Assembly (NCBI GenBank): GCA_009920665.1
Contig: RFZL01000015.1
Span: forward strand, 1 to 51,736
DNA: 51,736 nt
Direction: 5' to 3'
Source of the DNA: Alphaproteobacteria bacterium
GTDB lineage: Bacteria > Pseudomonadota > Alphaproteobacteria > Puniceispirillales > Puniceispirillaceae
The notes under the pieces were generated by a model. The model saw only the letters and a list, made by a program, of their open reading frames with translations. It was not told the origin of the DNA and searched no databases. The translations under genes were made by a program, and so were the position numbers. This document shows positions 4,431-19,535 of this stretch, piece after piece; the first letter of the stretch is position 1, and every line of letters starts with the position of its first letter.

Positions 4431-5495
4431 TCACTTCCATATCCTGTGAAGGAAGGAGAGCCAGTTTTCAACGCACAGTTTGGCGATCAGCTCTTCACCG
4501 AACCCATGTTGACGCATCGCCGCGACAAGGCGGGGCAGGTCGGCTGTGCTGGTGAGAGTCTCCGGCATCACCGCACCGTCATAATCCGAGCCGAGTCCGA
4601 CATGATCCTCGCCAAGAATGCCGATCATATGGTCGAGGTGGCGCAGCATCAGATCCAGCGGCACATCCGCCAGCATCCTGCCATCGGGTCGCAGAAAAGC
4701 GGTGGCAAAATTCAGCCCGACCATCCCGCCGCTGTCGCGAATGGTGCGCAGCTGGTCATCGGTCAGATTGCGTGCATGCGGGCATATGGCATGCGCGTTG
4801 GAATGCGTTGCAATCAGGGGATTTCTCGAATGCCGTGCGACATCACGGAACCCGGCCGCATTCATATGCGACAGATCGATCAGGATGCCAAGCTCGTCAC
4901 AGCGTCTGACCAGGCGAAGCCCGGCCTCGGTCAGCCCCGGCCCGGTATCAGGGCCGGACGGGAAGGCAAAGGGAACGCCATGGCCGAAAATGGTCGGGCG
5001 GCTCCAGACCGGGCCCAGTGACCGCAATCCGGCGGCATGAAGCACATCCAGCATCTGAAGGTCGGCGTCGATGGCCTCGGCGCCCTCGATATGCATGATC
5101 GCGGCGATCCTGCCGGCCGCCATGGCGGCCCTGATATCTGCCACGCTGCGGCAGATGCTCAATGCCCCTTGTCGCTCAAGCTGCAGAAGGATATTGATCT
5201 GCGCCATCGCCACCTCGACGGCATGTGGCCAGTCAAGCTGCGGTGGCAGTGGCAGATCATAGCTGTCGGCCATCATCGCGGCGGTGCGGGCGGCCCGGTC
5301 GACCTCCAGCGGCGGGATATAGACCGCAAAGAAACCGCCGGCAAAACCGCCGGCACGTGATTTCGGCAGGTCGATGGCCGCCTCATACCCATCGATGAAG
5401 GCCGCCGCCGGATCATGCGGATGAATGGCATGGAGTTTTGAAAGAACGTCATTATGCCCGTCGAAGATTGGCATGGTGGTTTCAGGGTTTTTCAT
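4431..5495 (-). CDS. Membrane-dipeptidase family (M19) dipeptidase
   Basis: Zinc dipeptidase of the renal dipeptidase family, which hydrolyses dipeptides including L-X-D-Y types. Metal and substrate motifs are all present: FDGHNDVL near the N-terminus, IMHIEGAEA, IDLSHMN, IATHSNAH with the following RNLTDDQLR, and GLGSDYDGA. No signal peptide or membrane anchor is seen, unlike the mammalian enzyme. The start at 5495 is preferred because AAGGAG sits 6-7 bases upstream; an in-frame ATG at 5513 also exists. The gene overlaps the end of the GH84 gene. In this locus a natural role is cleavage of L-Ala-D-Glu from murein; that substrate is inferred. Confidence 0.85.
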   Translation of the reverse strand: MKNPETTMPIFDGHNDVLSKLHAIHPHDPAAAFIDGYEAAIDLPKSRAGGFAGGFFAVYIPPLEVDRAARTAAMMADSYDLPLPPQLDWPHAVEVAMAQINILLQLERQGALSICRSVADIRAAMAAGRIAAIMHIEGAEAIDADLQMLDVLHAAGLRSLGPVWSRPTIFGHGVPFAFPSGPDTGPGLTEAGLRLVRRCDELGILIDLSHMNAAGFRDVARHSRNPLIATHSNAHAICPHARNLTDDQLRTIRDSGGMVGLNFATAFLRPDGRMLADVPLDLMLRHLDHMIGILGEDHVGLGSDYDGAVMPETLTSTADLPRLVAAMRQHGFGEELIAKLCVENWLSFLHRIWK

Positions 5496-6663
5496 CTGGT
5501 TCTCCTTCATCACCGGTGGTGGATCCGGTCAGTCGCCGCTGCAGCGGCGCGGTCTGCGTTTTGGCGATTCGCAGCGCCGGCAACTCGCCGGACGCAATCA
5601 GCAGATCATGTTTCAACCCGAACAGGAACGGGTACCATTCCCGTGCCAGCGGCGTTTTCCAGCGCCACAGAAGTGTTTCGATGGCATCGAACGCGGCTTT
5701 GTCGGCTGGCGGCGGTGCGGGTGGCACCATGTCGGCTGTGACCGGACCATCGAACCAGTTGGCAAGCTCGTGAAACGCCTGCGGCACGCCGGCCGCGGCA
5801 AGCGCCTCGCGCCAGGCCGCTTTGTTGTCACCTGCCGCCATCAGGCCAAGCAGAAGCATGTCCGTTTCCACCATACCAGTGCCATTCAGCATCAGGTCGC
5901 GCACGCCGGTTCGGCCGGCATGGCGTCCGACAAAAAGCCGGCGCGGGCAATAATCATTACAATAGTGATTGTCCCACAGGATCAGCCGTTGATGGAAACT
6001 GTTCGCCGCCGGCGTGGTCGAGCCGGTTAGCGGGTCGGTACCGGCGACGATATGTGAGCCGCAATGGAAGAGCGGCATGTCGGCGGGCAGGGCGGCGGCA
6101 AGGGCACGGTAGCTGTCAGGCGCCGCTTCGCTGATTTCATCGGCATAGATCCGCGGCACGACAATTGTTGGCACATCAAGGCGTGCCGCGAGGCGGCCAG
6201 CGATTCCGGCATGAAGGTCGATTTCGTTGGCCAGCGTCGGGTCAAGCGTCGGTGAGGGTGGCTCGATATCGTCAAACATCACCACAATCGCATGCGCGCC
6301 GGCAGCCTGTAGCGACAGCGCCTTTGCCAATAATGTTTCGAATTCCGCAGTGTCGCGGTTCGGGTCGTAATCGAGACCGGGGGCGATTCCGGCGAGCACC
6401 ATGACACCGCCCGCGGCAGCGGTGTCGCACATCGCGGTAAATTCACTCATCCAGTCTGCCGGCCAGGCATTGCGCCAGTTCACACGGTGACAGGGGTCTT
6501 CCTTCGGTGCGTAGAGATAGGCGTTCATACCAAGCGCGGCCAGCCTCGTGATGATCCTGCGGCGGTCCTGCCAGGTCAGCAGACGACCGTAATAGCCCTC
6601 GATATAGCCGCGTATCGGAGTCTCCGGCAGACGGGGTAGCCTTATCCTGTCGGCATCTGTCAT
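5482..6663 (-). CDS. Cytosolic GH84 beta-N-acetylglucosaminidase (O-GlcNAcase-like)
   Basis: Family GH84 hydrolases remove terminal beta-GlcNAc by substrate-assisted catalysis. The N-terminus IRGYIEGYYGRLLTW (residues 17-31) and NAYLYAPKEDPCHR (47-60) are the GH84 hallmark blocks; the catalytic Asp pair is Asp131-Asp132 in VMFDDIEPP; WDNHYCNDY (230-238) supplies the Asn/Asp pocket residues and Asn260 lies in LMLNGTGM. There is no signal peptide, so the enzyme is cytosolic. It overlaps the YkuD gene by 4 bases upstream and the dipeptidase downstream. GH84 homologues are known in alphaproteobacteria (Oceanicola granulosus). The operon suggests GlcNAc-anhydroMurNAc cleavage, the job usually done by NagZ (GH3). 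Confidence 0.85.
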   Translation of the reverse strand: MTDADRIRLPRLPETPIRGYIEGYYGRLLTWQDRRRIITRLAALGMNAYLYAPKEDPCHRVNWRNAWPADWMSEFTAMCDTAAAGGVMVLAGIAPGLDYDPNRDTAEFETLLAKALSLQAAGAHAIVVMFDDIEPPSPTLDPTLANEIDLHAGIAGRLAARLDVPTIVVPRIYADEISEAAPDSYRALAAALPADMPLFHCGSHIVAGTDPLTGSTTPAANSFHQRLILWDNHYCNDYCPRRLFVGRHAGRTGVRDLMLNGTGMVETDMLLLGLMAAGDNKAAWREALAAAGVPQAFHELANWFDGPVTADMVPPAPPPADKAAFDAIETLLWRWKTPLAREWYPFLFGLKHDLLIASGELPALRIAKTQTAPLQRRLTGSTTGDEGEPDEKP

Positions 6664-7199
6664 GAAGACGACTTTCCCCGGTTGCCATGGCCAATATGCA
6701 GGATCGTGCCGCTGTCTGCCCGGCGCAGCAGCGTGACCATGTCCTGCCTTGTCACGGCGACACAGCCAGCGGTATGGCGGGTATCATCCTCGCGAAGATG
6801 CAGGAAGACAGCGCTGCCAAGCCGGGGAACCGGCGGCGAATCATTATGTCCAAGGACCACGATCAGGTCATAGAGCGTGTCCTCTCGCCACAATTTTTCA
6901 TGGCGTGCCGCATAGGGAAGCCCGACCGGCCGGTTATATTCCAGATCCGCGGGATCATCGCACCAGCCCATATCGGGGGTGAGGGGCATGACCGTCAGGC
7001 CGGTATCCGGCGGCGGCATCCGGTCAGGTCGGTAATATAGATGGCGTAGCGGCCAGGCACCGACGGGTGTCGCCATGTCACCCTCGCGCTTGTCATCACC
7101 GGCGATGAAACCTGCCTTTCCGACAAGGCACTCACAGCCATGATGCGGCGCTGTCAGCCGGTATCCCTTGCCGGAAATGGTTACGGTCCAGTCATTCAC
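6660..7199 (-). CDS. YkuD-domain protein, putative cytosolic L,D-carboxypeptidase
   Basis: A 179-residue protein with the YkuD/L,D-transpeptidase active site: His134 in FLHLRED, the nucleophile Cys146 in HTAGCVAV and Arg151. No signal peptide, transmembrane segment or LysM/PG-binding domain is present, which is unusual for a cell-wall crosslinking enzyme. Signal-less YkuD proteins such as ElsL of Acinetobacter act as cytosolic L,D-carboxypeptidases in murein recycling, replacing LdcA; the operon here fits that role. The start codon is GTG at 7199 with AGGA just upstream; an ATG at 7195 is out of frame. It is first in the ykuD-GH84-dipeptidase operon. Confidence 0.8.
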   Translation of the reverse strand: MNDWTVTISGKGYRLTAPHHGCECLVGKAGFIAGDDKREGDMATPVGAWPLRHLYYRPDRMPPPDTGLTVMPLTPDMGWCDDPADLEYNRPVGLPYAARHEKLWREDTLYDLIVVLGHNDSPPVPRLGSAVFLHLREDDTRHTAGCVAVTRQDMVTLLRRADSGTILHIGHGNRGKSSS

Positions 7200-7326
7200 C
7201 TTGTCCTGTCTCCCGAAATCAGCTCGCCTCTCTGAAAATCGTGAGGCCGATATAATTTGCCTTTATTGGACAACACGGAATAGCCTGATCACAACCATAA
7301 AGACATTCAGGTGCTGGGAGGTTTAA
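7200..7326. promoter_or_regulatory. Divergent promoter region between ykuD and ampG
   Basis: The 127 bases between the two outward-facing starts must carry promoters for both directions. GGGAGG at 7316-7321 is the ribosome site for ampG. No convincing -35/-10 pair or inverted repeat could be picked out by eye. Confidence 0.45.
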
Positions 7327-8715
7327 GTGGTTCACCAGGAAACGGTCCGGTCCTCGGGCCTTATTTCGGATTTGTTCACTTCCTATCTCGAACGCAGGAT
7401 GGCGCGGATTCTCCTCTTGGGGATGATCAGCGGCTTTCCGTGGGTGCTGATCGGAAGTTCACTGTCACTCTGGCTCAAGGAGGATGGCCTGTCGCGAAGC
7501 GCCATCGGATGGGCCGGGCTCATTTTCGGGGTCTATGCCTTCAACTTCCTGTGGGCACCCCTCATTGACAGGCTGCGCGTGCCGGTGCTGACCGACAGGC
7601 TTGGCCACCGAAAAGCGTGGATCATCACGCTTCAGGCGGTGATCCTCGCCTGTCTTCTGTTCTGGAGCACGATCGACCCGACCACGTCACTGGCGCTGGT
7701 GATCGGCGCCGGCCTGATCATCGCCATCTGTTCAGCTACACAAGACATCACCATCGACGCACTGCGGATCGAGCAGATCGACAAGGATGACGCAAAGGGC
7801 ATGGCCGCCGGCGCCGCCGTGGCGGTTGTCGGTTGGTGGTCGGGCTATAAGCTTGGCGGGATGATCGCGCTGTTCCTTGCCGATCATCTGCAGACAAGCG
7901 GAGTCGAGAATTACTGGCAGATGACCTTTGTCGCGCTCGGCATTCTTGTGGTGCTGTGCAATGTCGGTCTGCTGTTCATTCCGGAGACCGGAACAAGGGA
8001 GCGTGCTGCCGACCAGCGCAACGCGCAACAGGCCATGGCCGCCCGCATGGGCGGCAAGGGGGCGCTCGTCCAGCTTGTCAGCTTCCTCACCACGACGGTG
8101 ATTGAACCCCTGTGGTCATTCTTCCGCAAGAACGGCCTGCAGATCGGGATGATGATCCTGGCCTTCATCTTCCTGTTCAAGATTGGCGAGGCCTTCATGG
8201 GCAAGATGTCGATCATCTTCTACAAGGAAGTCGGCTTCTCGAAATCGGATATCGCGATCTATTCCAAGGGCCTTGGCTGGATCACGACCGTGGTCTTCAC
8301 GCTGATTGGCGGATTGTTCGCGCTGCGCACAGGTGTTGTCAGGGCGTTGCTGGTTTCCGGCATCGCCATGGCGGCAACGAACATCCTGTTCAGTGTCCTG
8401 CACTGGGTCGGGCAGAATGAACTGATGTTCGCCATCGCGGTGATCGCTGATGATCTTGCCGCGGCCTTTGCCACAGTGGCCTTCGTCACCTTTATCTCGC
8501 TTCTGGTCGATCGCAATTACACGGCGACGCAATATGCGCTGCTGGCCTCGATCGGCACGCTCGGACGAACCTTGCTGGCCTCGTCATCGGGGGCGCTGGT
8601 CGACTGGCTGAATGGTGATTGGGGCATTTTCTTCATCATCACGGCGGTGATGGTGATCCCGGCGCTGGCCGTGCTGTGGATGCTGCGGGACAGGCTGCTT
8701 CCTCAGTCCGGCTGA
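7327..8715 (+). CDS. ampG: Muropeptide MFS permease AmpG
   Basis: Inner-membrane major facilitator that imports GlcNAc-anhydroMurNAc and its peptides from the periplasm. After a short cytosolic N-terminus, LLLGMISGFPWVLIGSS and the loop FLWAPLIDRLRVPVL followed by DRLGHRKAW are the AmpG hallmark segments; SATQDITIDALRIE in helix 4-5 is also typical. At 462 residues with about 12 helices and a hydrophilic central stretch it has normal size. The start is GTG at 7327, five bases after GGGAGG. It sits between the salvage genes on the other strand and overlaps the tail of the amidase gene by 13 bases, supporting a muropeptide substrate over other MFS cargo. Confidence 0.9.
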   Translation: MVHQETVRSSGLISDLFTSYLERRMARILLLGMISGFPWVLIGSSLSLWLKEDGLSRSAIGWAGLIFGVYAFNFLWAPLIDRLRVPVLTDRLGHRKAWIITLQAVILACLLFWSTIDPTTSLALVIGAGLIIAICSATQDITIDALRIEQIDKDDAKGMAAGAAVAVVGWWSGYKLGGMIALFLADHLQTSGVENYWQMTFVALGILVVLCNVGLLFIPETGTRERAADQRNAQQAMAARMGGKGALVQLVSFLTTTVIEPLWSFFRKNGLQIGMMILAFIFLFKIGEAFMGKMSIIFYKEVGFSKSDIAIYSKGLGWITTVVFTLIGGLFALRTGVVRALLVSGIAMAATNILFSVLHWVGQNELMFAIAVIADDLAAAFATVAFVTFISLLVDRNYTATQYALLASIGTLGRTLLASSSGALVDWLNGDWGIFFIITAVMVIPALAVLWMLRDRLLPQSG

Positions 8716-9932
8716 TTGCCAAGCCGCAGGATTGTAGCAGGCGCTTGCGAGGCGGCATCGGTGCGCGGCAACGCGTCTGACGCCGCCTCGATTGTCACTG
8801 CATGGTGATGCGCGTTGGCGTGAAGAAACCGGTCCGCCGACTGGAATATCCCGACATGGCCCGGCCAGAAGGCGAGATCGCCGCGCTGCGCCTGTGACGG
8901 CATGATGGTGGTTGTTCCGGTGCGGGCACGCGCCCATTCGAATTGCGGCCCGCTGTCGCGTGGGCAGGCAATACCGGCCGCCTGCAGCGCCAGTTGCAAC
9001 AGGGCCGAACAGTCGATCCCGGCGGCGCTGCGCCCGCCCCAAAGATAGGGGGTGCCGATCAGACGCTCGGCAACGCTGACGAAATCGGATTCGGGGATGT
9101 TGACCGGTATGGCGGCGCGGGACGGCACATATGCAGTGCCGCCATCGGGAAGGTTGATGCTGGACCAGTCTACCCCGGTATCGCTGACCGATACCAGCGC
9201 CCCCATCGACAGTCGCCATATGGCTGGCGACTTTACGTCCGGCGCGGTGAGGGCGTGGACCGACGCCGCGGCGATCCGATGTGTTGGCGGGATGCAGGTG
9301 CGCAATGTACCGTCGCAGCGGATCCAGCCCTCATAGGAATCCGTTTCTAGCCGAACCCGTGCATGGCTGCCCGCCTGTTCGATGATCTCGACCGTCTCGC
9401 CATAGAGCGCCTCGGTGTCGAGCGGTGCCTTGTCCGACGGGTCCCGCCGGATCGGCAATGAAGGCACGCAAACCATTATTGATGTGCCGGCATCCCGTGT
9501 CCGGCGTTGCTGCCACCAGGCGGCAGCATCGAAATTCGGGCATGTCTTGTGCGTTTCGACGGCATCACGATGACCGACGACGCGCGCCTGCGGATATCGT
9601 TGCTGCCATTCCGCCAGAAGCGCGGCGAGGCTGTCCATCTGCGCGGCGGTAAAATTGTGCCGGCCAATCAGGCAGACGCCAAGGCTGCGGTCATTGACGC
9701 CGCGGACATGCGCGCCGCGCCAATATTCAGGGCGCCCTGCCTCGCACAGCCCGTCACGCCCGATCACCCGGTGATAGCCGATGCCATCCCATCCGAACCC
9801 GAGATGCATGGCCTGGATGTCGCGCGCCCGCAGAGGTTCATCATCGGGCGTGTCGGAACAATGCACAACAAGCAGCTCGATAGCGTCACTGTCGAGAAGG
9901 CCGTCAATGGAATGGGGATTCGTGCCGTTCAT
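8703..9932 (-). CDS. Fused N-acetylmuramoyl-L-alanine amidase and NlpC/P60 endopeptidase
   Basis: Two muropeptide-cutting modules in one 409-residue protein. Residues 15-140 form an Amidase_2/PGRP-like zinc amidase: His24 in VVHCSDTP, His75 in GAHVRG, then GHRDAVETHKTCPNF with Lys129 and Cys131 as third metal ligand, the T7 lysozyme/PGRP arrangement instead of the AmpD Asp. Residues 150-275 hold two SH3-like domains (LYGETVEIIE..., PTHRIAAASV...). Residues 283-385 are NlpC/P60 with Cys308 (GIDCSAL), His359 (GHVGIF) and His371. No signal peptide is present, so action in the cytosol is likely. It overlaps anmK by 4 bases. Expected cuts: MurNAc-L-Ala and D-Glu-diaminopimelate. Confidence 0.88.
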   Translation of the reverse strand: MNGTNPHSIDGLLDSDAIELLVVHCSDTPDDEPLRARDIQAMHLGFGWDGIGYHRVIGRDGLCEAGRPEYWRGAHVRGVNDRSLGVCLIGRHNFTAAQMDSLAALLAEWQQRYPQARVVGHRDAVETHKTCPNFDAAAWWQQRRTRDAGTSIMVCVPSLPIRRDPSDKAPLDTEALYGETVEIIEQAGSHARVRLETDSYEGWIRCDGTLRTCIPPTHRIAAASVHALTAPDVKSPAIWRLSMGALVSVSDTGVDWSSINLPDGGTAYVPSRAAIPVNIPESDFVSVAERLIGTPYLWGGRSAAGIDCSALLQLALQAAGIACPRDSGPQFEWARARTGTTTIMPSQAQRGDLAFWPGHVGIFQSADRFLHANAHHHAVTIEAASDALPRTDAASQAPATILRLGNQPD

Positions 9933-11089
9933 GTGCTGTCTCCTGACCCGGCCAGCCTAGCAGACGGGTCCGGCGCGGCAAGTCGCCCGGCCGGCATGGG
10001 AGCGGGCGCGCCGGTCGTCTGCGGGTGGCTCACCGGCAGGCCGGCCATATGGCGGGCCGCCAGATAGGCAAAACATTCGGCTTCGACAGCGTCACTTCGC
10101 CAGCCAACACTTTCCGCCGGATCGGTTGTCACTCCGGTTGCCGCGGTGATGGCCTTCATCAGCGTCGGGTTATGGCGTCCACCGCCACAGACAATCAGCC
10201 GTTCCACCTGTGTCGGCAGCATGTCCAGCGCCCGCGCCACGCCGGCCGCGGCAAGGGCGGTCAACAATGCGGCGCCATCCGAAAGTGACAACCCATCAGC
10301 CATTGAGAATGAAAAATCATTCCTATCCAGTGACTTTGGTGGCAAAGTTGAGAAATAGGGTTTGGCCATCAACCCGGTCAGCCGGGTGTGATCAACCGTT
10401 CCATTGGCGGCAATCCTGCCCCCGTTATCCATGGTGCCGGCGTTGTGACGCCGCACCCAGTCATCGATTGGCGCGTTTGCCGGCCCGGTATCGAACCCGA
10501 TGAGCCTGCCATCCTTGCCCTGCCAGGTGATATTGCCGACGCCGCCGAGATTGAGCACGGCCACGCTTTCATCCATGCCGGCACGTTTGAGCAACGCCGC
10601 GTGATAGCTGGGGCAAAGCGGGGCACCATGCCCGCCCGCAGCCACATCGGCAGAGCGAAAATCAAATACCACCGGTCGCCCGATCATCGCCGCCATCAAC
10701 CCGCCATCGCCAAGCTGGCGTGTCCGGCCCGTCTGGCCGGCAGTGGGAGGTCGGTGGAGGACAGTCTGGCCGTGGAATCCGACAGCGGTAATATCGTCAA
10801 ACTTGAAAGCGTGGCTGTCTGCCGTTGCAATCACCGCCTGCGCCTGCGCGCCGGTCAGAGCATGTTCCGCCACAGCGAAGATCGCCGGTTCCGGTCCATC
10901 GAAGTTCCAACCCTGCGCCGCGGTGACGGCTTCGGTAATCAGCCTGCGCACATCATCAGGGTAGGGAATAATTGCCGCCGGGCCGAATTCCAAGATTCTC
11001 TCGCCATCGGTCTTCAGGAAGGCGATGTCGATCTCGCCATCGAGAACCGTTCCGGTCATCAGGCCGATATACCATCCGGGTGCGGTCAT
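9929..11089 (-). CDS. anmK: Anhydro-N-acetylmuramic acid kinase
   Basis: Cytosolic kinase that opens the 1,6-anhydro ring of anhydroMurNAc and phosphorylates it to MurNAc-6-phosphate using ATP. The N-terminal GLMTGTVLDGEIDIA is the nucleotide-binding motif of AnmK in its alphaproteobacterial form; VAVLNLGGVGNITW, GFDTGPANAPIDDW and IVCGGGRHNPTLM are the other conserved blocks of the ASKHA fold. The 386-residue length is normal. The ATG at 11089 is preceded by GAGG at good spacing. It is first in the operon anmK-amidase. MurQ, which would turn the product into GlcNAc-6-P for NagA, is not in this window. Confidence 0.92.
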   Translation of the reverse strand: MTAPGWYIGLMTGTVLDGEIDIAFLKTDGERILEFGPAAIIPYPDDVRRLITEAVTAAQGWNFDGPEPAIFAVAEHALTGAQAQAVIATADSHAFKFDDITAVGFHGQTVLHRPPTAGQTGRTRQLGDGGLMAAMIGRPVVFDFRSADVAAGGHGAPLCPSYHAALLKRAGMDESVAVLNLGGVGNITWQGKDGRLIGFDTGPANAPIDDWVRRHNAGTMDNGGRIAANGTVDHTRLTGLMAKPYFSTLPPKSLDRNDFSFSMADGLSLSDGAALLTALAAAGVARALDMLPTQVERLIVCGGGRHNPTLMKAITAATGVTTDPAESVGWRSDAVEAECFAYLAARHMAGLPVSHPQTTGAPAPMPAGRLAAPDPSARLAGSGDST

Positions 11090-11302
11090 GTTATGTCCTC
11101 ATTCGGTGCAGAGGTGATGAAGGTGTCGCTGGCCGGTCGCTGTCAGGCAGGCAGACTACATCATGAAACGCGGCGGGTGCCATGCGCAAGCCACGGCATG
11201 GCTCGCCGAACGGGATCGTGCTGGCGACAGGTGTCCTGCAGAGCCCTGAATGGCTTGACGCATCCTCGTCACATTGTGTCATAACCGGGGTGCGGTATAA
11301 GA
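11090..11302. promoter_or_regulatory. Divergent region between anmK and nagA
   Basis: About 210 bases between outward-facing genes, so promoters for both should lie here. The GAGG ribosome site of anmK is at its left edge. No clear operator, hairpin or consensus promoter was recognised. Confidence 0.4.
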
Positions 11303-12535
11303 TTGGCGCGCGCATCTGCAACAGGGACCAGGTCCATCTTGGCTTCACATGAAAATCATATCGCTGATGGCCTGATAATCAGGGCAAGGAGGATGTTTCC
11401 GGGTGGAGGCGCGGTCCCGTTGCGTGACCGGATCATCACCATCAGAAGCGGCGTCATCGTGGATATCATGCCGGCGAACGGGCTTCGGGCCGAAAATAAG
11501 TCCCCGCCAGTCAGGCATTTCGATATCATCGCCCCGGGTTTCATCGATTTGCAGATCAATGGCGCTGGCGGCGTGATGTTCAATGACACGCCTGATACAG
11601 CAACGCTGGCGCGCATGGTGGCCGCCGCCCGCAGCGGCGGGACATGCCATATGTTGCCGACTTTCATCACCGCGCCGGGTACCGCCTATACAGCCGCCCT
11701 TGATGCCGTTGCGGCATGGGATGGCCCGGAAATTCCGGGGGTTCATCTCGAAGGCCCGTTCCTGTCGTCGGCGAAGCCCGGAATCCACCCACGCGAGGCC
11801 ATCAGACGGATGAATGATGGTGACGTTGCCATATTGGTGGCGTTCGCCAAGTCCTTCGCGGGGCGTCTGCTGCTGACGCTGGCACCCGAAGAGGTGGATC
11901 CGGCGCATCTGGAAACGCTGCACGCTGCCGGTATCATCCTGTTTGCCGGCCATTCGCAGGCCACCGGCAGCGAGATTGCCAAAGCCGCCGAACGCGGGCT
12001 TTGCGGCGTAACGCATCTTTTCAACGCCTGTTCGCAGATCACTGCCCGCGATCCCGGTGTAGCTGGCATGGCACTGACTGACTGCAGGCTTGTGGCCGGC
12101 ATCATCGCTGACGGGCATCATGTCGATCCGGTCAATCTGGCGCTTGCCGCCAGGATGATGAAGGGGCGCCTGTGTCTGGTGTCTGATACGATGCCGACCT
12201 TTGGCAGTGCCATGCAGCACTTCAGCATCGGCGAACGGCAGGTCAGGCTCGTTGATGGCCGTCTTCAGGCCGGGGATGGCACGCTTGGCGGCGCGCATCT
12301 CGGCCTTGACGAGGCTGTCCGGATGATGGTTTCGCAAGCCGGAATATCACTGGAGGCGGCGCTTGACATGGCAAGCGGGGTGCCGGCCGACATCCTCGGT
12401 CTTCAGGACCGCTACGGCCGAATCGAGGTGGGGCGACCCGCCAGCCTGACCTGTCTCGATGAGTCTCTGGCCACGCAGGCGGTGCTTGTCGATGGCGAGA
12501 TGTCAGGAGGTGAGGGCGGCGACACAGGCGCGTGA
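11303..12535 (+). CDS. nagA: N-acetylglucosamine-6-phosphate deacetylase
   Basis: Amidohydrolase converting GlcNAc-6-P to glucosamine-6-P and acetate, feeding salvaged amino sugar back into metabolism. Visible motifs are FIDLQINGAGGVMFND, the metal Glu in GVHLEGPFLS, the His ligands in FAGHSQA and GVTHLFNACS, and SDTMPTFGS with the catalytic Asp. The start is uncertain: the longest frame begins at a TTG (11303), another TTG lies at 11339, and no ATG with a good ribosome site precedes the conserved region. It overlaps the end of uxuB by 33 bases tail to tail. Confidence 0.88.
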   Translation: MARASATGTRSILASHENHIADGLIIRARRMFPGGGAVPLRDRIITIRSGVIVDIMPANGLRAENKSPPVRHFDIIAPGFIDLQINGAGGVMFNDTPDTATLARMVAAARSGGTCHMLPTFITAPGTAYTAALDAVAAWDGPEIPGVHLEGPFLSSAKPGIHPREAIRRMNDGDVAILVAFAKSFAGRLLLTLAPEEVDPAHLETLHAAGIILFAGHSQATGSEIAKAAERGLCGVTHLFNACSQITARDPGVAGMALTDCRLVAGIIADGHHVDPVNLALAARMMKGRLCLVSDTMPTFGSAMQHFSIGERQVRLVDGRLQAGDGTLGGAHLGLDEAVRMMVSQAGISLEAALDMASGVPADILGLQDRYGRIEVGRPASLTCLDESLATQAVLVDGEMSGGEGGDTGA

Positions 12536-13927
12536 GCCGTCACGGCCAAGCCGCTCATAGGCCGCGCGGACAGCTTCGACAAATGCCCGCTGTGCGTTGA
12601 GTTCAGGTTCGAAGATGCTGTCCATGGCAAGAACGGCGCCGACCGGATCATCTGTCCCGGTGGCAGTCTTCAGGCTGTCCGCAAGCGGGTCTCTGACATC
12701 GATCGGTGCGCCGGATTCATCCTGTCCTCCGACATAGCGAATCCATCCGGCGACGACCAGGCACAGGCCTTGCGGCACCACCCCCTGAGCCAGTCTGTCG
12801 GCAATCGTGCCCAAAATCCGCTGTGGCAGTTTCTGGCTGCCATCCATAGCGATCTGCCAGGTGCGGTGCCGGATCGACGGATTCTGATAGCGCGCCATCA
12901 GCGACTGGCAATAACGCGGGAGGTCCTCGCCCTCGGGTGTTTCCAGTGTTGGCAGGATTTCCTCCTGCCACAATTCGGTGCACAGCGCCTCGAATGGCGG
13001 GTCGGCCACGGTGTCGGCAATCGTCTCATGCCCGGCAAGATAGCCGAGATAGGCCAGCGCTGAATGGGTGCCATTGAGACAGCGAAGCTTCATCAATTCA
13101 TGTGCTTCTACGTTGGACACAAACTGGACCCCGGCTGTGGCCCAGTCGGGATGACCTGCTGTGAAGCCGGTTTCGATCACCCATTGGCGGAACGGTTCAT
13201 GGATCACGGCGGCTTCGTCCAGATACCCGGCGCTACTGGCCAGCGCGTCGATATCCGGCGGCGTTGTCGCCGGGGTGATCCGGTCAACCATCGTACAGGG
13301 AAAGGCGGCGTCCGTCTCGATCCAACCGGCGAGATCCGGGTCGATCTCATTCGCGAAGGCCGTCACTACCTTGCGCGCCATCCGGCCATTCATCGGCAGA
13401 TTATCGCAGGTCAGAACGGTGAAGGGCGGCAGATTTCGTTCCCGGCGCGCTTTCAGTCCGGCAACGATGAAGCCAATGGCTGAAACCGGATTGTCCGGAT
13501 TCGCCAGATCATGCCGGATATCGGGGTGATCCTGCAGCAATTCGCCTGTTTGCGGATCGCGGCAGTAACCTTTCTCGGTAATGGTGAGGGAGACAATCCT
13601 GATGGCGGGATCGGCCATTTTTGCGATGACGGACGCCGGATCCTCGGGCGCGACCATCACCTCGGTTATGGCATCCACCCGGCGCGCAATATCGCCACCC
13701 GGCCCCCGTTCCACCGCGGTATAGACGCAATCCTGCGGGGCCAGCCGGTCCCGCGTGCCTGATGATTGCAGGCTGACCGCGACAATACCCCACTCGCCTC
13801 CGGCCAGTTTCATCGCCTCGTCGGTCCAGGGGGCAAGGAAGGCCCGAAAAAAAGCACCGGGCCCCAGATGCACAATTCCCGGGGCGGGTGGTTTGCCTCG
13901 CCGTTGCAATCGCGGTGTGTCTGACAT
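12503..13927 (-). CDS. uxuB: Fructuronate reductase / mannitol dehydrogenase family
   Basis: NAD-dependent polyol dehydrogenase family member, expected to reduce D-fructuronate to D-mannonate after UxaC. The Rossmann start GIVHLGPGAFFRAF, the VSLTITEKGYC block and the catalytic-site KLRCLNGTHSAL (Lys, Asn, His) are present. The ATG at 13927 is chosen: it lies 19 bases after the uxaC stop and follows a GAGGG ribosome site, whereas an upstream start would extend into uxaC. That gives 474 residues, normal for the family. Pairing with uxaC favours fructuronate over mannitol or tagaturonate. No uxuA or kdgK is nearby. Confidence 0.82.
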   Translation of the reverse strand: MSDTPRLQRRGKPPAPGIVHLGPGAFFRAFLAPWTDEAMKLAGGEWGIVAVSLQSSGTRDRLAPQDCVYTAVERGPGGDIARRVDAITEVMVAPEDPASVIAKMADPAIRIVSLTITEKGYCRDPQTGELLQDHPDIRHDLANPDNPVSAIGFIVAGLKARRERNLPPFTVLTCDNLPMNGRMARKVVTAFANEIDPDLAGWIETDAAFPCTMVDRITPATTPPDIDALASSAGYLDEAAVIHEPFRQWVIETGFTAGHPDWATAGVQFVSNVEAHELMKLRCLNGTHSALAYLGYLAGHETIADTVADPPFEALCTELWQEEILPTLETPEGEDLPRYCQSLMARYQNPSIRHRTWQIAMDGSQKLPQRILGTIADRLAQGVVPQGLCLVVAGWIRYVGGQDESGAPIDVRDPLADSLKTATGTDDPVGAVLAMDSIFEPELNAQRAFVEAVRAAYERLGRDGSRACVAALTS

Positions 13928-13946
13928 CGTAATCGGCACCCTCGGG

Positions 13947-15353
13947 CTAGAGATTATAAGCCTGTTTGGCAAGATTGTAGGTGAGCTCCCGCGCCACTTC
14001 AAACGCCTCCGATTCGCGCAGCCTGCCGGTGCCGACAAGATTCGCCAGATAGGCGCAGTCCGACCGCCGCGCCACATCATGTCGCGCCGGGATCGAGCAG
14101 AAGGCCCGAGTGTCGTCATTGAAGCCGGCGGTGTTGTAGAACCCGCATGTCTCGGTCACCGCCTCGCGGAATTTACGGATCCCCTCGAAGGAATCGAAGA
14201 ACCACCAGGGTGGACCCAGCCTCAGCGCCGGATAGACACCGGCAAGCGGGGCCAGTTCGCGCCCATAGGCAGTTTCGTCAAGCGTGAACAGAATGATCTG
14301 CAATCCGGGTTCCAGCCCGACAGCATTCAGCAGCGGTTTCAACTCGTCGACATAGTCGGTGCGCCCGGGGATGTCGAAGCCCATGTCACGCCCATGCCAC
14401 GCCAGAATTGCTTCATTGTGATTGCGGTGCGAGCCGGGGTGGATCTGCATCACCAGCCCGTCATCAAGGCTCATTCGCGCCATTTCGGTCAGCATCTGAC
14501 CACGGAACAGATCGGCTTCCTGTAGGGTGCAGCCCCCCTTCAGCGCCTTCTGGAACAGCGCTTCGGCCTCGTGCCGGGACAGATCGGCGGTCCGCGCGCT
14601 GGCATGGCCATGATCGGTGGCGGTGGCGCCAAAGCTCTTGAAATATTCACGGCGGCTGCGATGCGCCGCCAGATAACCGTCCCAGCTTGCGGTGTCCTCG
14701 CCGGTCATCTCGCCAAGGCGCGCGACATTCGCGGCGAACCCCTGAAAATCCGGATCGATCACGGCGTCCGGACGGTATGTCGTGATGATCCGGCCGGACC
14801 AGCCGCTGTCGCGCATTTGTTGGTGCCAGCGCAAATCGTCGGTGGCGGCATCCGTGGTGGCCAATAGCTCGACATTGAAATGCTCGAAGAGCGCGCGGGG
14901 CCGGAAATCATCTCGCTGGAGGCAGCTGTCGATATGGTCGTAATAGGCGTCGGCGGTTTCGGCGGACAGCACCTCCTCGAGGCCGAACAGATGTTCGAAA
15001 GTATGATCCAGCCACAGCGCCGAAGGCGTGCCGCGAAAAAGATGGTAATGCGCGGCAAAGCAATGCCAGATCGCACGCGGATCGGATTGCGCGTCGCCGC
15101 CATCGGCGCGCGGGATACCCAGATCGCTCAGCGCGACCCCTTGGCTTGCCAGCATCCGGAACAGGTAATGGTCGGGAATGACCAGAAGTTCAGCCGGGTT
15201 TGGAAAGCGGTTGTTCTCGGCAAACCAGCGTGGGTCGCAATGGCCATGCGGGCTGATGATAGGCAGGTCACGGACCGACTCATAAAAGGCACGCGCCATG
15301 TCGCGAAGCCGTTGGTCTACGGGAAACAGGCGGTCCGGATCGGTCAGGGGCAC
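13947..15353 (-). CDS. uxaC: Glucuronate/galacturonate isomerase
   Basis: Cytosolic isomerase of the amidohydrolase superfamily converting D-glucuronate to D-fructuronate (or D-galacturonate to D-tagaturonate). The N-terminal LPIISPHGHCDPRWFAEN carries the HxH metal motif; DHYLFRMLASQGV, the RDMARAFYE start and FNDDTRAFCSIPARHD near the C-terminus are typical. The 468-residue length is standard. It is the upstream partner of uxuB. It follows ureG in the same direction after 84 bases, so read-through from the urease operon is possible, though functionally unrelated. Confidence 0.93.
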   Translation of the reverse strand: MPLTDPDRLFPVDQRLRDMARAFYESVRDLPIISPHGHCDPRWFAENNRFPNPAELLVIPDHYLFRMLASQGVALSDLGIPRADGGDAQSDPRAIWHCFAAHYHLFRGTPSALWLDHTFEHLFGLEEVLSAETADAYYDHIDSCLQRDDFRPRALFEHFNVELLATTDAATDDLRWHQQMRDSGWSGRIITTYRPDAVIDPDFQGFAANVARLGEMTGEDTASWDGYLAAHRSRREYFKSFGATATDHGHASARTADLSRHEAEALFQKALKGGCTLQEADLFRGQMLTEMARMSLDDGLVMQIHPGSHRNHNEAILAWHGRDMGFDIPGRTDYVDELKPLLNAVGLEPGLQIILFTLDETAYGRELAPLAGVYPALRLGPPWWFFDSFEGIRKFREAVTETCGFYNTAGFNDDTRAFCSIPARHDVARRSDCAYLANLVGTGRLRESEAFEVARELTYNLAKQAYNL

Positions 15354-15437: not shown

Positions 15438-16088
15438 TCAGCGCCGGGTCAGGCCACCTTCATCGATCAGGAAGTCGACAAGCTCATCAACCCCGACACT
15501 CTTGCGCATCGAACCGAAGATGAAGGGAAGGTCGCGCCGGCCGGCTGCCGTATCGGCCCGCATCCGGTCGAGATCGACCTCGACATAGGGCGCCAGCTCG
15601 ATCTTGTTGACAACCAGCATGTCGGATTTCAACAGCGCCGGCCCTTTCTTGCGCGGGATGTCGGCGCCCATGCAGACATCAATGATGTAGATCGTCAGAT
15701 CGACAAGTTCGGGACTGAAGGTCGCGGCCAGATTGTCGCCGCCGGATTCGATCAGGATCAACTCCAGATCGGGGAAGGCGGCGTTCAGGTCGGCGACAGC
15801 GGCGAGGTTGACCGAGGCATCCTCGCGGATTGCCGTATGCGGGCAACCGCCGGTCTCAACCCCCCTGATCCGTTCCGCTGGCAGCGCCTGCGCGCGCAAG
15901 AGATAATCCGCATCCTCGCGGGTGTAGATATCATTCGTAATCACTGCCATCGACAGGTGCGGCGACAGCGCCCGGCACAATGCCTCGGTCATGCTTGTCT
16001 TGCCGGCTCCGACAGGGCCGCCGATGCCGACACGAAGCGGCCCGTGCTTGAGTGTCGCAGTAGGATTGGATATCGCGCTGCTTGTCAT
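15438..16088 (-). CDS. ureG: Urease accessory GTPase UreG
   Basis: SIMIBI GTPase that couples GTP hydrolysis to nickel delivery into apo-urease. P-loop [10 protein letters not shown], the metal-binding Cys-Pro-His element in [17 protein letters not shown] and the [11 protein letters not shown] segment are intact, as is [11 protein letters not shown] (guanine recognition NKxE-like). The 216-residue size is normal. It is the last gene of ureDABCEFG and overlaps ureF by 4 bases. The following 84 bases before uxaC hold no gene. Confidence 0.96.
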
Positions 16089-16777
16089 GTTCGGTAGATC
16101 CGCTGTTCGGCTGCTTCATGTTCAAGTGATGCCAGTTCTGCGCCTGTTGCAAAGCTGCCGATCTGATCGGCCGGCGTCGCAAGGGCTGTGTTGGCAGCTG
16201 CGTCAATCTCGGGCATCAGCGCGACAAGACATTGCTGCCCGTCAAGCTGGCCGATGGGAATGGCGCGGACCGCCACTGAAATCTGATTGGTGCACCAGGA
16301 TTGCAGGAATGCCCTCACAAGCTGACCTTGACCCAGACCGACTCTGGCCCCGGCATGGCCGACCGCGACCGGATAGACAAGGCCGGCGGTCAGCTCCAGC
16401 CCGTGCGTCGCGTTGACAATCTGCGTGAACGCGCGCCCGAGTTCGGTTGTCTCAAGATGGCGCTCAGCGCCGGCACAGAGCGACAAACACAGATCATTCA
16501 CATCCTCGCCTTCAAAGGCACGGGCGACGATGACAGCGTCGGTCTGCGCCGCGCCATGATGCAGTGCCATGGACAACCATGACTGCAACTCCTGCCGACT
16601 TCCGACGCTGCCGTTGGCGATGGCTGTTTCAAGCCCGGCCGAATAGCTGAAAGCCCCGATCGGGAAGGCCGGCGAAAACCAGTTCTGAATGATCTGTTGA
16701 TGAAGGGCGGCCGTCATTGCTTGATCCGTCATTGTTTGATCTGTCATTGTTTGATCCGTCAGTGCATGATCCGTCAA
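16085..16777 (-). CDS. ureF: Urease accessory protein UreF
   Basis: UreF forms the UreD-UreF-UreG activation complex on apo-urease. The conserved start [21 protein letters not shown] and the [13 protein letters not shown]-type helical core are present. The frame opens with a TTG at 16777 that overlaps the ureE stop, then three in-frame ATGs (16747, 16732, 16717), each starting a 15-base repeat unit, so the true start is ambiguous; the conserved protein proper begins after 16717. Length is 210-230 residues depending on start, usual for UreF. Confidence 0.92.
16717..16777 (-). repeat. 15-base coding repeats at the ureF 5' end
   Basis: On the minus strand about four units of the form ATGACNGATCAANCA run from near 16777 to 16717, encoding MTDQT-like pentapeptides (the first unit is degenerate). 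The period of 15 keeps the frame, and every complete unit supplies another ATG start. Confidence 0.8.
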
Positions 16778-17217
16778 TGCTGATGCCCGTGGGTGCGGCC
16801 ATGCCCGAAGGCGCCGCCCTCGGGGCGGAACGGGGCGGTGAGGGGGCTTACAGTGGCGCCAAGTCGCTCTAGCATCGCCTGTAGCACCGAATCATCGCGG
16901 ATGAGCAGATGATCACCGCAGATCTGGCAGGGCGTGTGGCGGTTGCCGATATGCCAGGCAATTCGTGGCAGATTTTCGTGGCGTACGGCCAGCAGGGATT
17001 CACTGGCGGCGCGGATGGCGATCACCCGCCCGTCATCAAGCTGAAAGCCTTCGCCATCATTCACCGAGCGCGTTTCGGCAAGCTCGACCAGAAAGGCCTC
17101 GCCGCCATCACTGGTCAGTTTCTTCCGGCGGATGAACCGGGCCTCATAGTCAAGCGTCACCGTGTCCTGCGCGGTGTCGTCATGAAGATGATGTCTGATG
17201 GTCTGCGCAATATGCAT
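16774..17217 (-). CDS. ureE: Urease nickel metallochaperone UreE
   Basis: Nickel-binding chaperone for urease maturation. The start at 17217 is chosen because GGAGG lies 8 bases upstream, giving 147 residues (typical about 150); an ATG at 17232 is also in frame. The N-terminal domain has the RIRRKKL-like peptide-binding strand region and the C-terminal domain has NLPRIAWHIGNRHTP with the conserved metal His. The tail [14 protein letters not shown] is His-rich, as in many nickel-storing UreE proteins. It is placed between ureC and ureF and ends in a TTGA overlap with ureF. Confidence 0.93.
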   Translation of the reverse strand: MHIAQTIRHHLHDDTAQDTVTLDYEARFIRRKKLTSDGGEAFLVELAETRSVNDGEGFQLDDGRVIAIRAASESLLAVRHENLPRIAWHIGNRHTPCQICGDHLLIRDDSVLQAMLERLGATVSPLTAPFRPEGGAFGHGRTHGHQH

Positions 17218-17237
17218 GACGCGGTCCTCCATTCCCT

Positions 17238-18947
17238 TCAGAACAGGAAATAGCGCTGTGCCATAGGCAGTTCCTCTGCCGGCTCGCATGTCAGCAATTC
17301 GCCATCGGCCCGCACCTCGTAGGTTTCCGGATTGACCTCGATCTGCGGGCAATAGCTGTTATGGACCATATCGGCTTTCGAGATGGTACGGGTCTTCGCA
17401 ACAGCCAGTGTTCTCTTCGCAAGGCCAAGCCTCGTGCCGATATCGTCATCCTGCGCCGCCGCACTGACAAAGCTGACAGCCGATTGCTCGACCGAGCGGC
17501 CATAGGCCCCGAACATCGGGCGCGTATAGACAGGCTGCGGGGTCGGAATCGAGGCGTTCGGGTCACCCATCTGAGCACAGGCAATGCTGCCGCCAAGAAG
17601 CACCATTTCCGGTTTCACGCCAAAGAAGGCCGGATGCCACAGCACCAGATCAGCGCGTTTGCCGATCTCGATCGACCCGATATGGCCGGAAATGCCATGC
17701 GCGATCGCCGGATTGATGGTGTATTTGGCGACATAGCGCTTTACCCGCACATTGTCATTGTCACCGGTTTCCTCGGGCAGTCGGCCGCGCTGTACCTTCA
17801 TCTTGTGGGCGGTCTGCCAGGTGCGGATGATCACCTCGCCAACGCGTCCCATGGCCTGGCTGTCCGAGGCGATGATCGAGAACGCGCCCATATCGTGAAG
17901 GATATCCTCGGCGGCAATCGTCTCGCGGCGGATCCGGCTTTCGGCAAATGCGACATCTTCCGGGATCGACTTGTCGAGGTGATGGCAGACCATCAGCATG
18001 TCCAGATGCTCTTCCAGCGTGTTGACGGTGTAGGGGCGGGTCGGGTTTGTCGAGGATGGCAGAACATGTGGCTCGCCGCAGATCTTGATGATGTCGGGCG
18101 CGTGCCCCCCGCCAGCACCCTCGGTATGAAAGGCATGGATGACGCGGTTCTTCATCGCGGCGACGGTGTTCTCGACAAAGCCGCTTTCATTCAGCGTATC
18201 GGTATGGATCATCACCTGGACATCCATCGCATCGGCGACTGACAGGCAATTGTCGATGGCGCCCGGCGTCGTGCCCCAATCCTCATGCAGTTTCAGTGCG
18301 CAGGCGCCACCACGGACCTGTTCCTCAAGCGCGGCCGGCAGTGAGGCATTGCCCTTGCCGGCAAAGGCAAGGTTCATCGCAAAGGCATCCGCCGCCTGCA
18401 GCATCCGCCCGATATGCCATGGTCCGGGTGTGCATGTCGTCGCCAGCGTGCCATGTGCCGGGCCGGTGCCGCCGCCAAGCATCGTCGTCAGACCGGAATG
18501 CAGCGCGTCATCGATCTGTTGCGGGCAGATGAAATGGATATGGCTGTCAAACCCGCCGGCAGTCAGAACATGACCTTCACCGGCAATGGCCTCGGTGCCG
18601 GGACCGATGATGATGTCGACCCCGGGCTGCGTGTCCGGATTGCCGGCTTTGCCGATGCCGGCGATGACGCCGCCCTTCAGGCCGATATCCGCCTTGAAGA
18701 TGCCGGTGACATCAACGACAAGGGCATTGGTGACCACCGTGTCGACGGCGCCGTCTGCGCGGGTGGTCTGGGATTGGCCCATGCCGTCACGGATGACCTT
18801 GCCACCGCCGAATTTCACCTCCTCGCCATAGGTTGTGAAATCCTTTTCCACCTCGATGATCAGGTCGGTATCGGCAAGCCTTACCCGATCACCCGTGGTT
18901 GGGCCATACATGTCGGCATAGGCCGCGCGGGATATCTGTTTTGGCAT
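17238..18947 (-). CDS. ureC: Urease alpha (catalytic) subunit
   Basis: Hydrolyses urea to ammonia and carbamate at a dinickel site. All catalytic residues are seen, offset by two from Klebsiella: His136 and His138 (DSHIHF), carbamylated Lys219 (ALKLHEDWG), His248, His274, flap residues Cys321-His322-His323 (VCHHLDKS) and Asp362 (IASDSQAMG). The 569-residue length is standard and the C-terminus [10 protein letters not shown] is canonical. It overlaps ureB by one base (TGATG). The subunit itself looks fully functional. Confidence 0.97.
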
Positions 18948-19263
18948 CAGAGGTCTCCCATGATCTGCTGGTTGAAACCGAAAACGCGGCGGCCCCCGGT
19001 GAGCGGGACAAGTACCACCTCTCGGCTCTGGCCCGGCTCGAACCGGACGGCTGTTCCGGCGGCGATATCAAGGCGCAGGCCGCGCGCTGCCGCTCGGTCG
19101 AAGTCGAGCGCCGCGTTTGTCTCGGCAAAATGATAGTGGCTTCCGACCTGAACCGGGCGGTCGCCCGTGTTGGCGACAATGAGGACGGTTTGTCCGGCGC
19201 CGGCATTCAGTGTGATCTCGCCATCCGCTGGCAGAATTTCTCCCGGAATCATAATAGGGGGAA

Positions 19264-19267
<4 letters not shown>
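18947..19267 (-). CDS. ureB: Urease beta subunit
   Basis: Structural small subunit of the (alpha-beta-gamma)3 urease. The conserved [18 protein letters not shown] start and the [18 protein letters not shown] and [10 protein letters not shown] strands, then the terminal [16 protein letters not shown], are present in full. The start ATG at 19267 overlaps the ureA stop by 4 bases; a second ATG at 19252 (MIPGE) would match the most common family start. The 106-residue length is normal. Confidence 0.95.
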
Positions 19268-19524
<257 letters not shown>

Positions 19525-19535
19525 GGCCTACCCTT

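Follow-up and report, generated by a model that had tools for sequence, protein, structure and literature searches.

A putative muropeptide salvage locus in the SAR116 group, with a GH84 enzyme as candidate for the NagZ step

The subject of this study is a cluster of seven genes (positions 4431-12535) in a DNA stretch of 51,736 nucleotides, here called the window (assembly GCA_009920665.1, contig RFZL01000015.1, positions 1-51,736). It comes from an alphaproteobacterium of the SAR116 group (order Puniceispirillales). The genes encode a GH84 glycosidase, a YkuD-domain protein, the permease AmpG, an amidase-NlpC/P60 fusion, AnmK, NagA, and an M19 dipeptidase (Table 1). Phylogenetic, structural, and gene-context analyses suggest that the locus very probably encodes the cytosolic part of a pathway by which this SAR116 bacterium salvages and catabolizes muropeptides; its substrates, cellular location, and step order are predicted. 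NagZ is the accepted enzyme for the removal of N-acetylglucosamine (GlcNAc) in cell-wall recycling, a process that it also ties to beta-lactamase induction. The strongest new statement of this analysis is that a single GH84 clade probably carries out NagZ's reaction both in one marine group of Alphaproteobacteria and in one family of Gammaproteobacteria, on the basis of context, co-occurrence, and NagZ absence. A wider claim is somewhat favoured: in SAR116 and the Granulosicoccaceae, a dedicated GH84 clade took over the NagZ step. Together with YkuD in the place of LdcA, the AmpD-YkfC fusion, M19 instead of the epimerase/PepD route, and, in most GH84-bearing SAR116 relatives, PIG-L instead of NagA, this would make a pathway in which non-orthologous enzymes catalyze most classical cytosolic steps and degradation of the stem peptide is complete.

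In the proposed pathway, AmpG would import GlcNAc-anhydro-N-acetylmuramic acid (anhMurNAc)-peptides. The GH84 enzyme would remove GlcNAc in NagZ's stead, and the YkuD protein would remove the terminal D-Ala in LdcA's stead. The amidase half of the fusion would cut anhMurNAc from L-Ala and free the L-Ala amino end; the NlpC/P60 half, which would need this free end, would then cut D-Glu from meso-diaminopimelate (mDAP), and M19 would then split L-Ala-D-Glu. AnmK, MurQ (on another contig), and NagA would turn anhMurNAc into glucosamine-6-phosphate (GlcN-6-P); a NagK-like kinase with NagA would do the same for GlcNAc, and NagB would lead on to fructose-6-phosphate. A joint salvage pathway had been proposed in the first-pass annotation, and it is supported and extended here, with the enzyme activities as predictions.

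Imported cell-wall fragments are apparently dismantled by an unusual enzyme set, including a relative of human O-GlcNAcase. If this is true, a widespread marine group lacks NagZ and LdcA and has AmpG, AnmK, and MurQ, so that whether a genome has the classical genes would say little about whether its owner recycles cell wall. The GH84 clade would also gain a cell-wall role. The fusion and the PIG-L/NagA exchange offer concrete and cheap enzyme tests.

Structural and phylogenetic analysis of the GH84 enzymes

The GH84 protein shares 17-25% sequence identity with the solved GH84 structures listed. Its AlphaFold model (predicted local distance difference test, pLDDT, 87.8) has an O-GlcNAcase fold, consisting of a TIM-barrel plus a helical domain as in OGA. 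The best Foldseek match was OgOGA; comparison with human OGA (5m7s) gave a Z-score of 35.9, a root-mean-square deviation of 3.0, and 354 aligned residues with 21% identity. In an alignment of 23 chosen homologues, Asp131-Asp132 is conserved without exception, as are many other positions. This pair aligns with the Asp pair of OgOGA, and the Asp pair of GH84 enzymes is presumably catalytic. The fold and the Asp pair are thus shared with the GH84 O-GlcNAcases (human OGA, OgOGA, CpNagJ, and BtGH84), whereas the enzymes of the locus clade are short, apparently cytosolic, and tied to AmpG. The NCBIfam full-length GlcNAcase equivalog scored 73.6 bits, far under its cut-off of 1000. The GH84 enzyme of the locus is a putative NagZ replacement, with predicted activity on GlcNAc-anhMurNAc.

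The genome of the window (G000; 2.69 Mb in 214 contigs, 99.15% complete) was searched together with 100 relatives, giving 101 genomes, 43 of them rated good. SAR116 or Candidatus Puniceispirillum is the label of many relatives that were retrieved by name. GH84 was found in 62 of the 101 genomes, including that of the window, and in 31 of the 43 good ones. The NagZ family, GH3 (PF00933), had no match in the window's genome, in a search that did not extend to GH20, GH73, or other GlcNAcase families. GH3 matched in two of the 101 genomes and in none of the good ones, and it was undetected in four single-contig relatives that carry GH84 (G016, G023, G061, and G067). The same search found GH3 in 280 of 337 Alphaproteobacteria, sampled evenly from the class. 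The two GH3 matches were considered as an ordinary NagZ of the group and rejected. The match in G052 is NagZ-like (30% identity over 220 amino acids) and lies at the end of a contig; this genome has a listed contamination of 7% and no GH84 match. The match in G009 covers 95 amino acids only (29% identity).

The first-pass annotation had named full sets of nagZ, ldcA, and ampD elsewhere in the genome as grounds against its own proposal. No such sets were found: GH3 and S66 (the LdcA family) have no match, and the one Amidase_2 match is the fusion itself. A search for mpaA with the E. coli query also found none.

Conservation of the locus in relatives and in a second class

Stretches around GH84 were taken from 40 of the 61 GH84-bearing relatives, cut by contig ends, and searched with tailored profiles. 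AnmK was found in 37 of them, AmpG in 36, PIG-L in 31, and NagA in 3; YkuD, amidase, P60, and MurQ were each found in 32. The clustering of the locus genes is not chance, as it recurs in these stretches. Gene order and strands vary among them; therefore, the grouping has survived rearrangement. Conservation of the gene set, a check proposed in the first-pass annotation, is seen in the relatives, and most of the set recurs in another class.

GH84 and AmpG occurred together in 59 of the 101 genomes, with GH84 only in 3, AmpG only in 5, and neither in 34; the corresponding counts in the good genomes were 31, 0, 2, and 10. For GH84 and MurQ the counts in the 101 genomes were 55, 7, 4, and 35, and for GH84 and Amidase_2 they were 48, 14, 3, and 36. 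The Fisher p-values of co-occurrence are very small, with kinship ignored. MurQ was counted above 168 bits (59 of 101 genomes); at an E-value of 0.001, 98 of the 101 matched, many of these through other SIS-domain proteins, and a partial MurQ match in G020 (111.7 bits) was counted as absent. The Amidase_2 counts are low by at least three genomes (G081, G072, and G097), whose split amidases (L032, L034, and L071) were caught only by the tailored profile. Three genera (g2, g7, and g11; 15 genomes) have no GH84, and AmpG and MurQ are both missing at the cut-off in 13 of these genomes, the exceptions being G033 with AmpG and G052 with MurQ. The whole salvage module seems to be absent or lost together in these genera.

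GH84 loci on named contigs were represented by the best 80 of 580 confirmed ones; the context counts by group leave out L134, L141, L157, L158, L159, L161, and the named SAR116 loci. In Granulosicoccus and other Granulosicoccaceae (Gammaproteobacteria), AmpG lies within one gene of GH84 in 11 of 11 loci: directly beside it in 8, and with AnmK alone between them in 3. These 11 stretches also contain P60 (9), amidase (7), AnmK (4), MurQ (3), and M19 (2), and GH3 had no match in 7 of the 11 genomes. In a tree of 68 chosen GH84 proteins, the SAR116 and Granulosicoccaceae enzymes form one clade (35 rows, support 100/99), apart from those of SAR86, Fibrobacterota, and five other alphaproteobacterial GH84s. 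Several forks of the tree are open, and it does not indicate which of the two, SAR116 or the Granulosicoccaceae, was the donor.

The SAR86 and Fibrobacterota GH84 genes were considered as parts of a like locus and rejected: the surroundings of the 17 SAR86-type and the 11 Fibrobacterota-type loci showed none of nine marker genes. GH3 is present in all 8 SAR86 genomes tested, with listed open reading frames (ORFs) of at least 646 amino acids (E. coli NagZ has 341), and in one of five Fibrobacterota-type genomes. Many SAR86 bacteria carry a short GH84 (L136 and L140-L156 except L141); 12 of the 17 loci are in the tree, where they form two separate clades. In L147 and L149, the upstream ORFs resemble, by eye, release factor 1 and its methyltransferase. 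Fibrobacterota and Chitinivibrionia (L128-L133, L135, and L137-L139) hold a related GH84 lineage without salvage neighbours.

The predicted peptide-cleaving enzymes

The YkuD protein matches a single Pfam family over its 179 amino acids. His134, Thr143, Gly145, and Cys146 are invariant in 18 of 18 chosen sequences, Cys146 and His134 being the catalytic residues. With its model (pLDDT 93.3), only Csd6 and Bd1075 were matched by Foldseek below an E-value of 0.001. A structural aligner placed Csd6 (Z-score 13.9) and Pgp2 (13.2) first; B. subtilis YkuD scored 12.2, and Bd1075 was sixth with 11.8. Csd6, Pgp2, and Bd1075 are L,D-carboxypeptidases, the first two of the YkuD type. The fold likeness is support, not proof, because B. 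subtilis YkuD itself scores 12.2. By sequence, no PDB entry matched up to an E-value of 0.1. S66 was undetected by profile search in all 101 genomes, including that of the window, and detected in 6 of the 14 controls, including E. coli; the Caulobacter control has no S66. The leaderless YkuD protein is best described as a putative cytosolic L,D-carboxypeptidase and LdcA replacement. It resembles ElsL of Acinetobacter baumannii, which is a precedent: this species lacks LdcA, and its ElsL is a YkuD L,D-carboxypeptidase with no leader (PMC8649774). Both are short YkuD-domain proteins (<200 amino acids) with a catalytic Cys, no signal peptide seen, and no LdcA beside them. However, orthologues of ElsL are mainly from Gamma- and Betaproteobacteria, with alphaproteobacteria unmentioned in the main text of that paper (PMC8649774), and the two proteins are likened here by description, not by sequence.

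The fusion contains an Amidase_2 domain (residues 16-133), SH3_16/SH3_3, and an NlpC/P60 domain (residues 293-385). Its amidase half is closest to T7 lysozyme, with the VHCS, GHRD, and KTCPNFD positions aligned (His/His/Cys); these positions of the T7-lysozyme type are presumably the zinc ligands. The NCBIfam AmpD equivalog (NF008758) scored 28.5 bits, below its cut-off of 143. The fusion's N-terminal half is the sole PF01510 match in the genome, where this search found no separate AmpD. The fusion had been proposed as a replacement of AmpD; the fused arrangement is confirmed, but the domain itself belongs to the Amidase_2 (AmpD / T7 lysozyme) family, so that AmpD is reorganised rather than replaced.

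For the other half, the closest matches are dipeptidyl-peptidase VI (DPP VI) and BcYkfC (3h41). C308, H359, and H371, the NlpC/P60 Cys-His-His residues, are invariant in 11 of 11 chosen fused homologues. A PRDSGPQ segment is identical to that of 3h41; it corresponds to 3h41 residues 254-260 if DCSG starts at Asp237, and thus covers Arg255, Asp256, and Ser257. In BcYkfC these three residues line the L-Ala/D-Glu pocket, and Asp256 is essential for the free L-Ala end (PMC2954226). Y200 is also invariant in the 11 fused homologues; it is a candidate equivalent of BcYkfC Tyr118 and lies outside the 3h41 alignment. The fusion is predicted to combine an AmpD-type amidase with a YkfC-type gamma-D-Glu-mDAP endopeptidase. 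Both parts occur in 32 of the relatives' stretches, fused in 11 and as two adjacent genes in 21; all 21 split pairs are same-strand neighbours, overlapping or at most 7 bp apart. This adjacency or fusion fits sequential action with the amidase first, because the amidase would expose the free L-Ala terminus on which a YkfC-type enzyme depends. The SH3b and NlpC/P60 domains, the Cys/His/His residues, the Arg-Asp-Ser motif, and putatively an SH3b tyrosine are shared with YkfC/DPP VI, and YkfC-type homologues have been placed in alphaproteobacteria too (PMC2954226). Unlike YkfC/DPP VI, the protein is fused to Amidase_2 and encoded beside AmpG, and M19 stands in the locus rather than the YkfB epimerase route.

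The closest solved chains of the M19 protein are 3ly0 (409.8 bits) and 3fdg (409.4 bits), and it is a putative L-Ala-D-Glu dipeptidase. MpaA, YcjG, Mpl, and PIG-L were not found in the window's genome with E. coli queries (plus one PIG-L query); the absences of MpaA, YcjG, and PIG-L come from single-sequence queries and are weaker than those from profile searches. A joined NagK/Mpl/MpaA/YcjG/PIG-L query matched the MurC gene, a region on contig C170 through its NagK part (27% identity), and, weakly, contig C130 (E-value 8e-4, NagK part). A match on contig C140 was considered as Mpl and rejected, since it scored 506.8 bits as MurC versus 194.9 bits as Mpl; a MurG-like ORF adjoins it (by eye). 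Stem peptides are probably fully degraded in this bacterium, because no Mpl, MpaA, or YcjG was found.

A hydropathy scan revealed no hydrophobic stretch at the N-terminus of the four hydrolases or AnmK, which agrees with the lack of signal peptides in the hydrolases noted at first pass. The maximum 11-residue Kyte-Doolittle mean near the N-terminus was 0.38-1.51 in these five proteins; a binding-protein-like ORF at 1587, used as positive control of this hydropathy-only scan, reached 2.53.

The sugar-phosphate steps

MurQ is encoded on contig C113 (270.7 bits, cut-off 168). It is adjoined by a NagB-like gene, resembling glucosamine-6-phosphate deaminase (best 236.2 bits, under the curated cut-offs), and by a BadF-family kinase gene whose sole NCBIfam match is NagK_SO3507 (123.6 bits, cut-off 370). 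The statement that MurQ and NagK are lacking thus holds for the window, yet MurQ, NagK-like, and NagB genes are present on this other contig. Sugar ABC transporter genes lie near the set (C113; L180:7167-9623), and a second NagA-like gene (33% identical) is at C113:67560-68552. Together with the window's NagA, these genes complete, on paper, the path that leads both sugars to GlcN-6-P and beyond.

NagA stands in the set of the window, as first annotated; in most GH84-bearing relatives, however, there is PIG-L instead, with MurQ inside the cluster. Of the 62 genomes with GH84, 10 carry a NagA-type match and 44 a PIG-L; no genome carries both, and 8 carry neither. The NagA list was cut at an E-value of 1e-10 and includes five matches of 28-38% identity, none in a GH84-bearing genome (G052, G062, G065, G068, and G074); where a genome has a second, weak NagA-like match (G000 and G002), it was counted once. 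The PIG-L gene (e.g. L046:7190-7876) is placed between AnmK and GH84 in most of the relatives' stretches. The nearest named family is BshB1, under its cut-off. The cluster PIG-L protein is likely a non-homologous GlcNAc-6-phosphate deacetylase candidate of another fold in NagA's place, because the PIG-L family includes sugar N-deacetylases.

Comparison with known recycling systems

AmpG, AnmK, MurQ, and NagA are of the same families as in E. coli recycling, and the overall logic is the same. Unlike in E. coli, no GH3 NagZ, S66 LdcA, MpaA, YcjG, or Mpl was found in the window's genome; instead GH84, YkuD, the amidase-NlpC/P60 fusion, and M19 are present, and the genes are clustered. Caulobacter crescentus likewise has AmpG, an AmpD-like amidase (AmiR), and AnmK, without LdcA or Mpl (PMC13046382). 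It differs in having a GH3 NagZ and a MurU shunt and no MurQ (PMC13046382), whereas in the window's genome no NagZ was found, a MurQ is present, and YkuD is the candidate for the LdcA step. In A. tumefaciens, YejBEF-YepA acts in place of AmpG (PMC9790009).

No report of GH84 replacing NagZ was found in the literature searched, which comprised titles and abstract starts, with subscription papers mostly outside. GH84 appears alongside peptidoglycan recycling in print in the form of human O-GlcNAcase in an inhibitor study. Among the matches listed, none was on point for muropeptide work in SAR116 or Granulosicoccus, those found concerning other bacteria, nor for PIG-L as a NagA substitute.

Alternative explanations

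Several observations weigh against the proposed pathway. The window's own assembly is fragmented, so its absences are not absolute, and of the GlcNAcase families the search covered GH3 and GH84. The absence of S66 says little, being common in the class (Caulobacter too). GH84 enzymes have other known GlcNAc substrates, and the nine marker genes are missing around the SAR86-type and Fibrobacterota-type copies. The BcYkfC Asp256 position is Asp in 6 of the 11 fused homologues and Asn in the other 5. M19 occurs in only 19 of the 40 relatives' stretches, and neither NagA nor PIG-L was detected in 4 of the 31 GH84-bearing good genomes. In the Granulosicoccaceae, the YkuD gene was found in 0 of the 11 stretches, and 4 of the 11 genomes carry GH3 (ORFs of 410, 807, 458, and 433 amino acids); the 807-residue protein, the sole one compared with NagZ, is 27% identical over 236 amino acids.

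It is quite improbable that the GH84 enzyme acts elsewhere (on O-GlcNAc of proteins, on chitobiose, or on some other GlcNAc glycan) and that its adjacency to AmpG and AnmK is incidental. The solved relatives are named O-GlcNAcases or hyaluronidases, and the SAR86-type and Fibrobacterota-type copies stand in other surroundings; however, the AmpG neighbourhood and the co-occurrence hold across the order sample and a second class, the locus clade is separate from five other alphaproteobacterial GH84s, and the genome has no GH3 match that could account for the NagZ step. That NagZ and LdcA are present but were missed, through an assembly gap or divergence, is extremely unlikely. The 214 contigs and the at least three split amidases missed by the PF01510 search speak for it, but the search that detected no GH3 in any good genome, the four single-contig ones with GH84 included, finds this family in most of the class sample, and S66 was detected in the controls.

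The same enzymes might mainly serve feeding on outside peptidoglycan, from dead neighbours or detritus, rather than recycling of the own wall, and this has a lesser but appreciable chance of being right. No Mpl (the sole match is MurC) and no epimerase match was found in the genome, the endopeptidase and the M19 dipeptidase would break the peptide down to amino acids, and the MurQ, NagK-like, and NagB genes are near a sugar ABC transporter. Tannerella forsythia is described as scavenging outside muropeptides with an AmpG (PMC5388701); the AmpG of the Gram-negative models, by contrast, imports own-wall fragments freed by lytic transglycosylases (PMC9790009). It is rather doubtful that the leaderless YkuD protein is another L,D-enzyme on imported peptides, such as an endopeptidase or an amino-acid exchanger. 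YkuD domains usually occur in secreted L,D-transpeptidases (PMC8649774). The protein has no sequence relative in the PDB, B. subtilis YkuD scores near Csd6, and no YkuD gene was seen in the Granulosicoccaceae stretches. On the other side, S66 was undetected throughout the 101 genomes, and the nearest folds, Csd6, Pgp2, and Bd1075, are carboxypeptidases. ElsL also offers the precedent of a leaderless YkuD carboxypeptidase (PMC8649774).

Gene layout and neighbouring genes

The family calls were made with Pfam and NCBIfam profiles, and the seven genes were confirmed at the positions and in the families first annotated (Table 1). The M19 gene has a GTG start as called; an ATG at 5495 is equally plausible. 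The ATGA overlaps reported at first pass correspond, by coordinates, to 4-bp overlaps of YkuD with GH84 and of AnmK with the fusion. AmpG lies on the opposite strand between the fusion and YkuD, and NagA is divergent from AnmK.

Table 1. Genes of the salvage locus, with window positions and profile scores
Product	Position	Strand	Profile match
M19 dipeptidase, 360 aa	4431..5513	-	PF01244, 303.4 bits
GH84/NAGidase, 393 aa	5482..6663	-	PF07555, 140.6 bits (cut-off 25)
YkuD-domain protein, leaderless, 179 aa	6660..7199	-	PF03734, 54.9 bits
AmpG muropeptide permease, 462 aa	7327..8715	+	TIGR00901, 378.1 bits (cut-off 350)
Fusion Amidase_2-SH3-NlpC/P60	8703..9932	-	Amidase_2 PF01510, 70.4 bits
AnmK, anhydro-N-acetylmuramic acid kinase	9929..11089	-	NF007141, 462.6 bits (cut-off 352)
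NagA, GlcNAc-6-phosphate deacetylase	11303..12535	+	TIGR00221, 250 bits (cut-off 225.65)

Further along the window, at 12503-15353, a fructuronate-reductase-like gene (NCBIfam) has a 33-bp overlap with the end of NagA and is followed by a gene judged by eye to be uronate isomerase-like. The fructuronate reductase profile also matches the stretches of two congeners (L056 and L057). At 15438-20351 there is a urease cluster, recognized by eye from UreG, UreF, UreE, UreC, UreB, and UreD-like ORFs.

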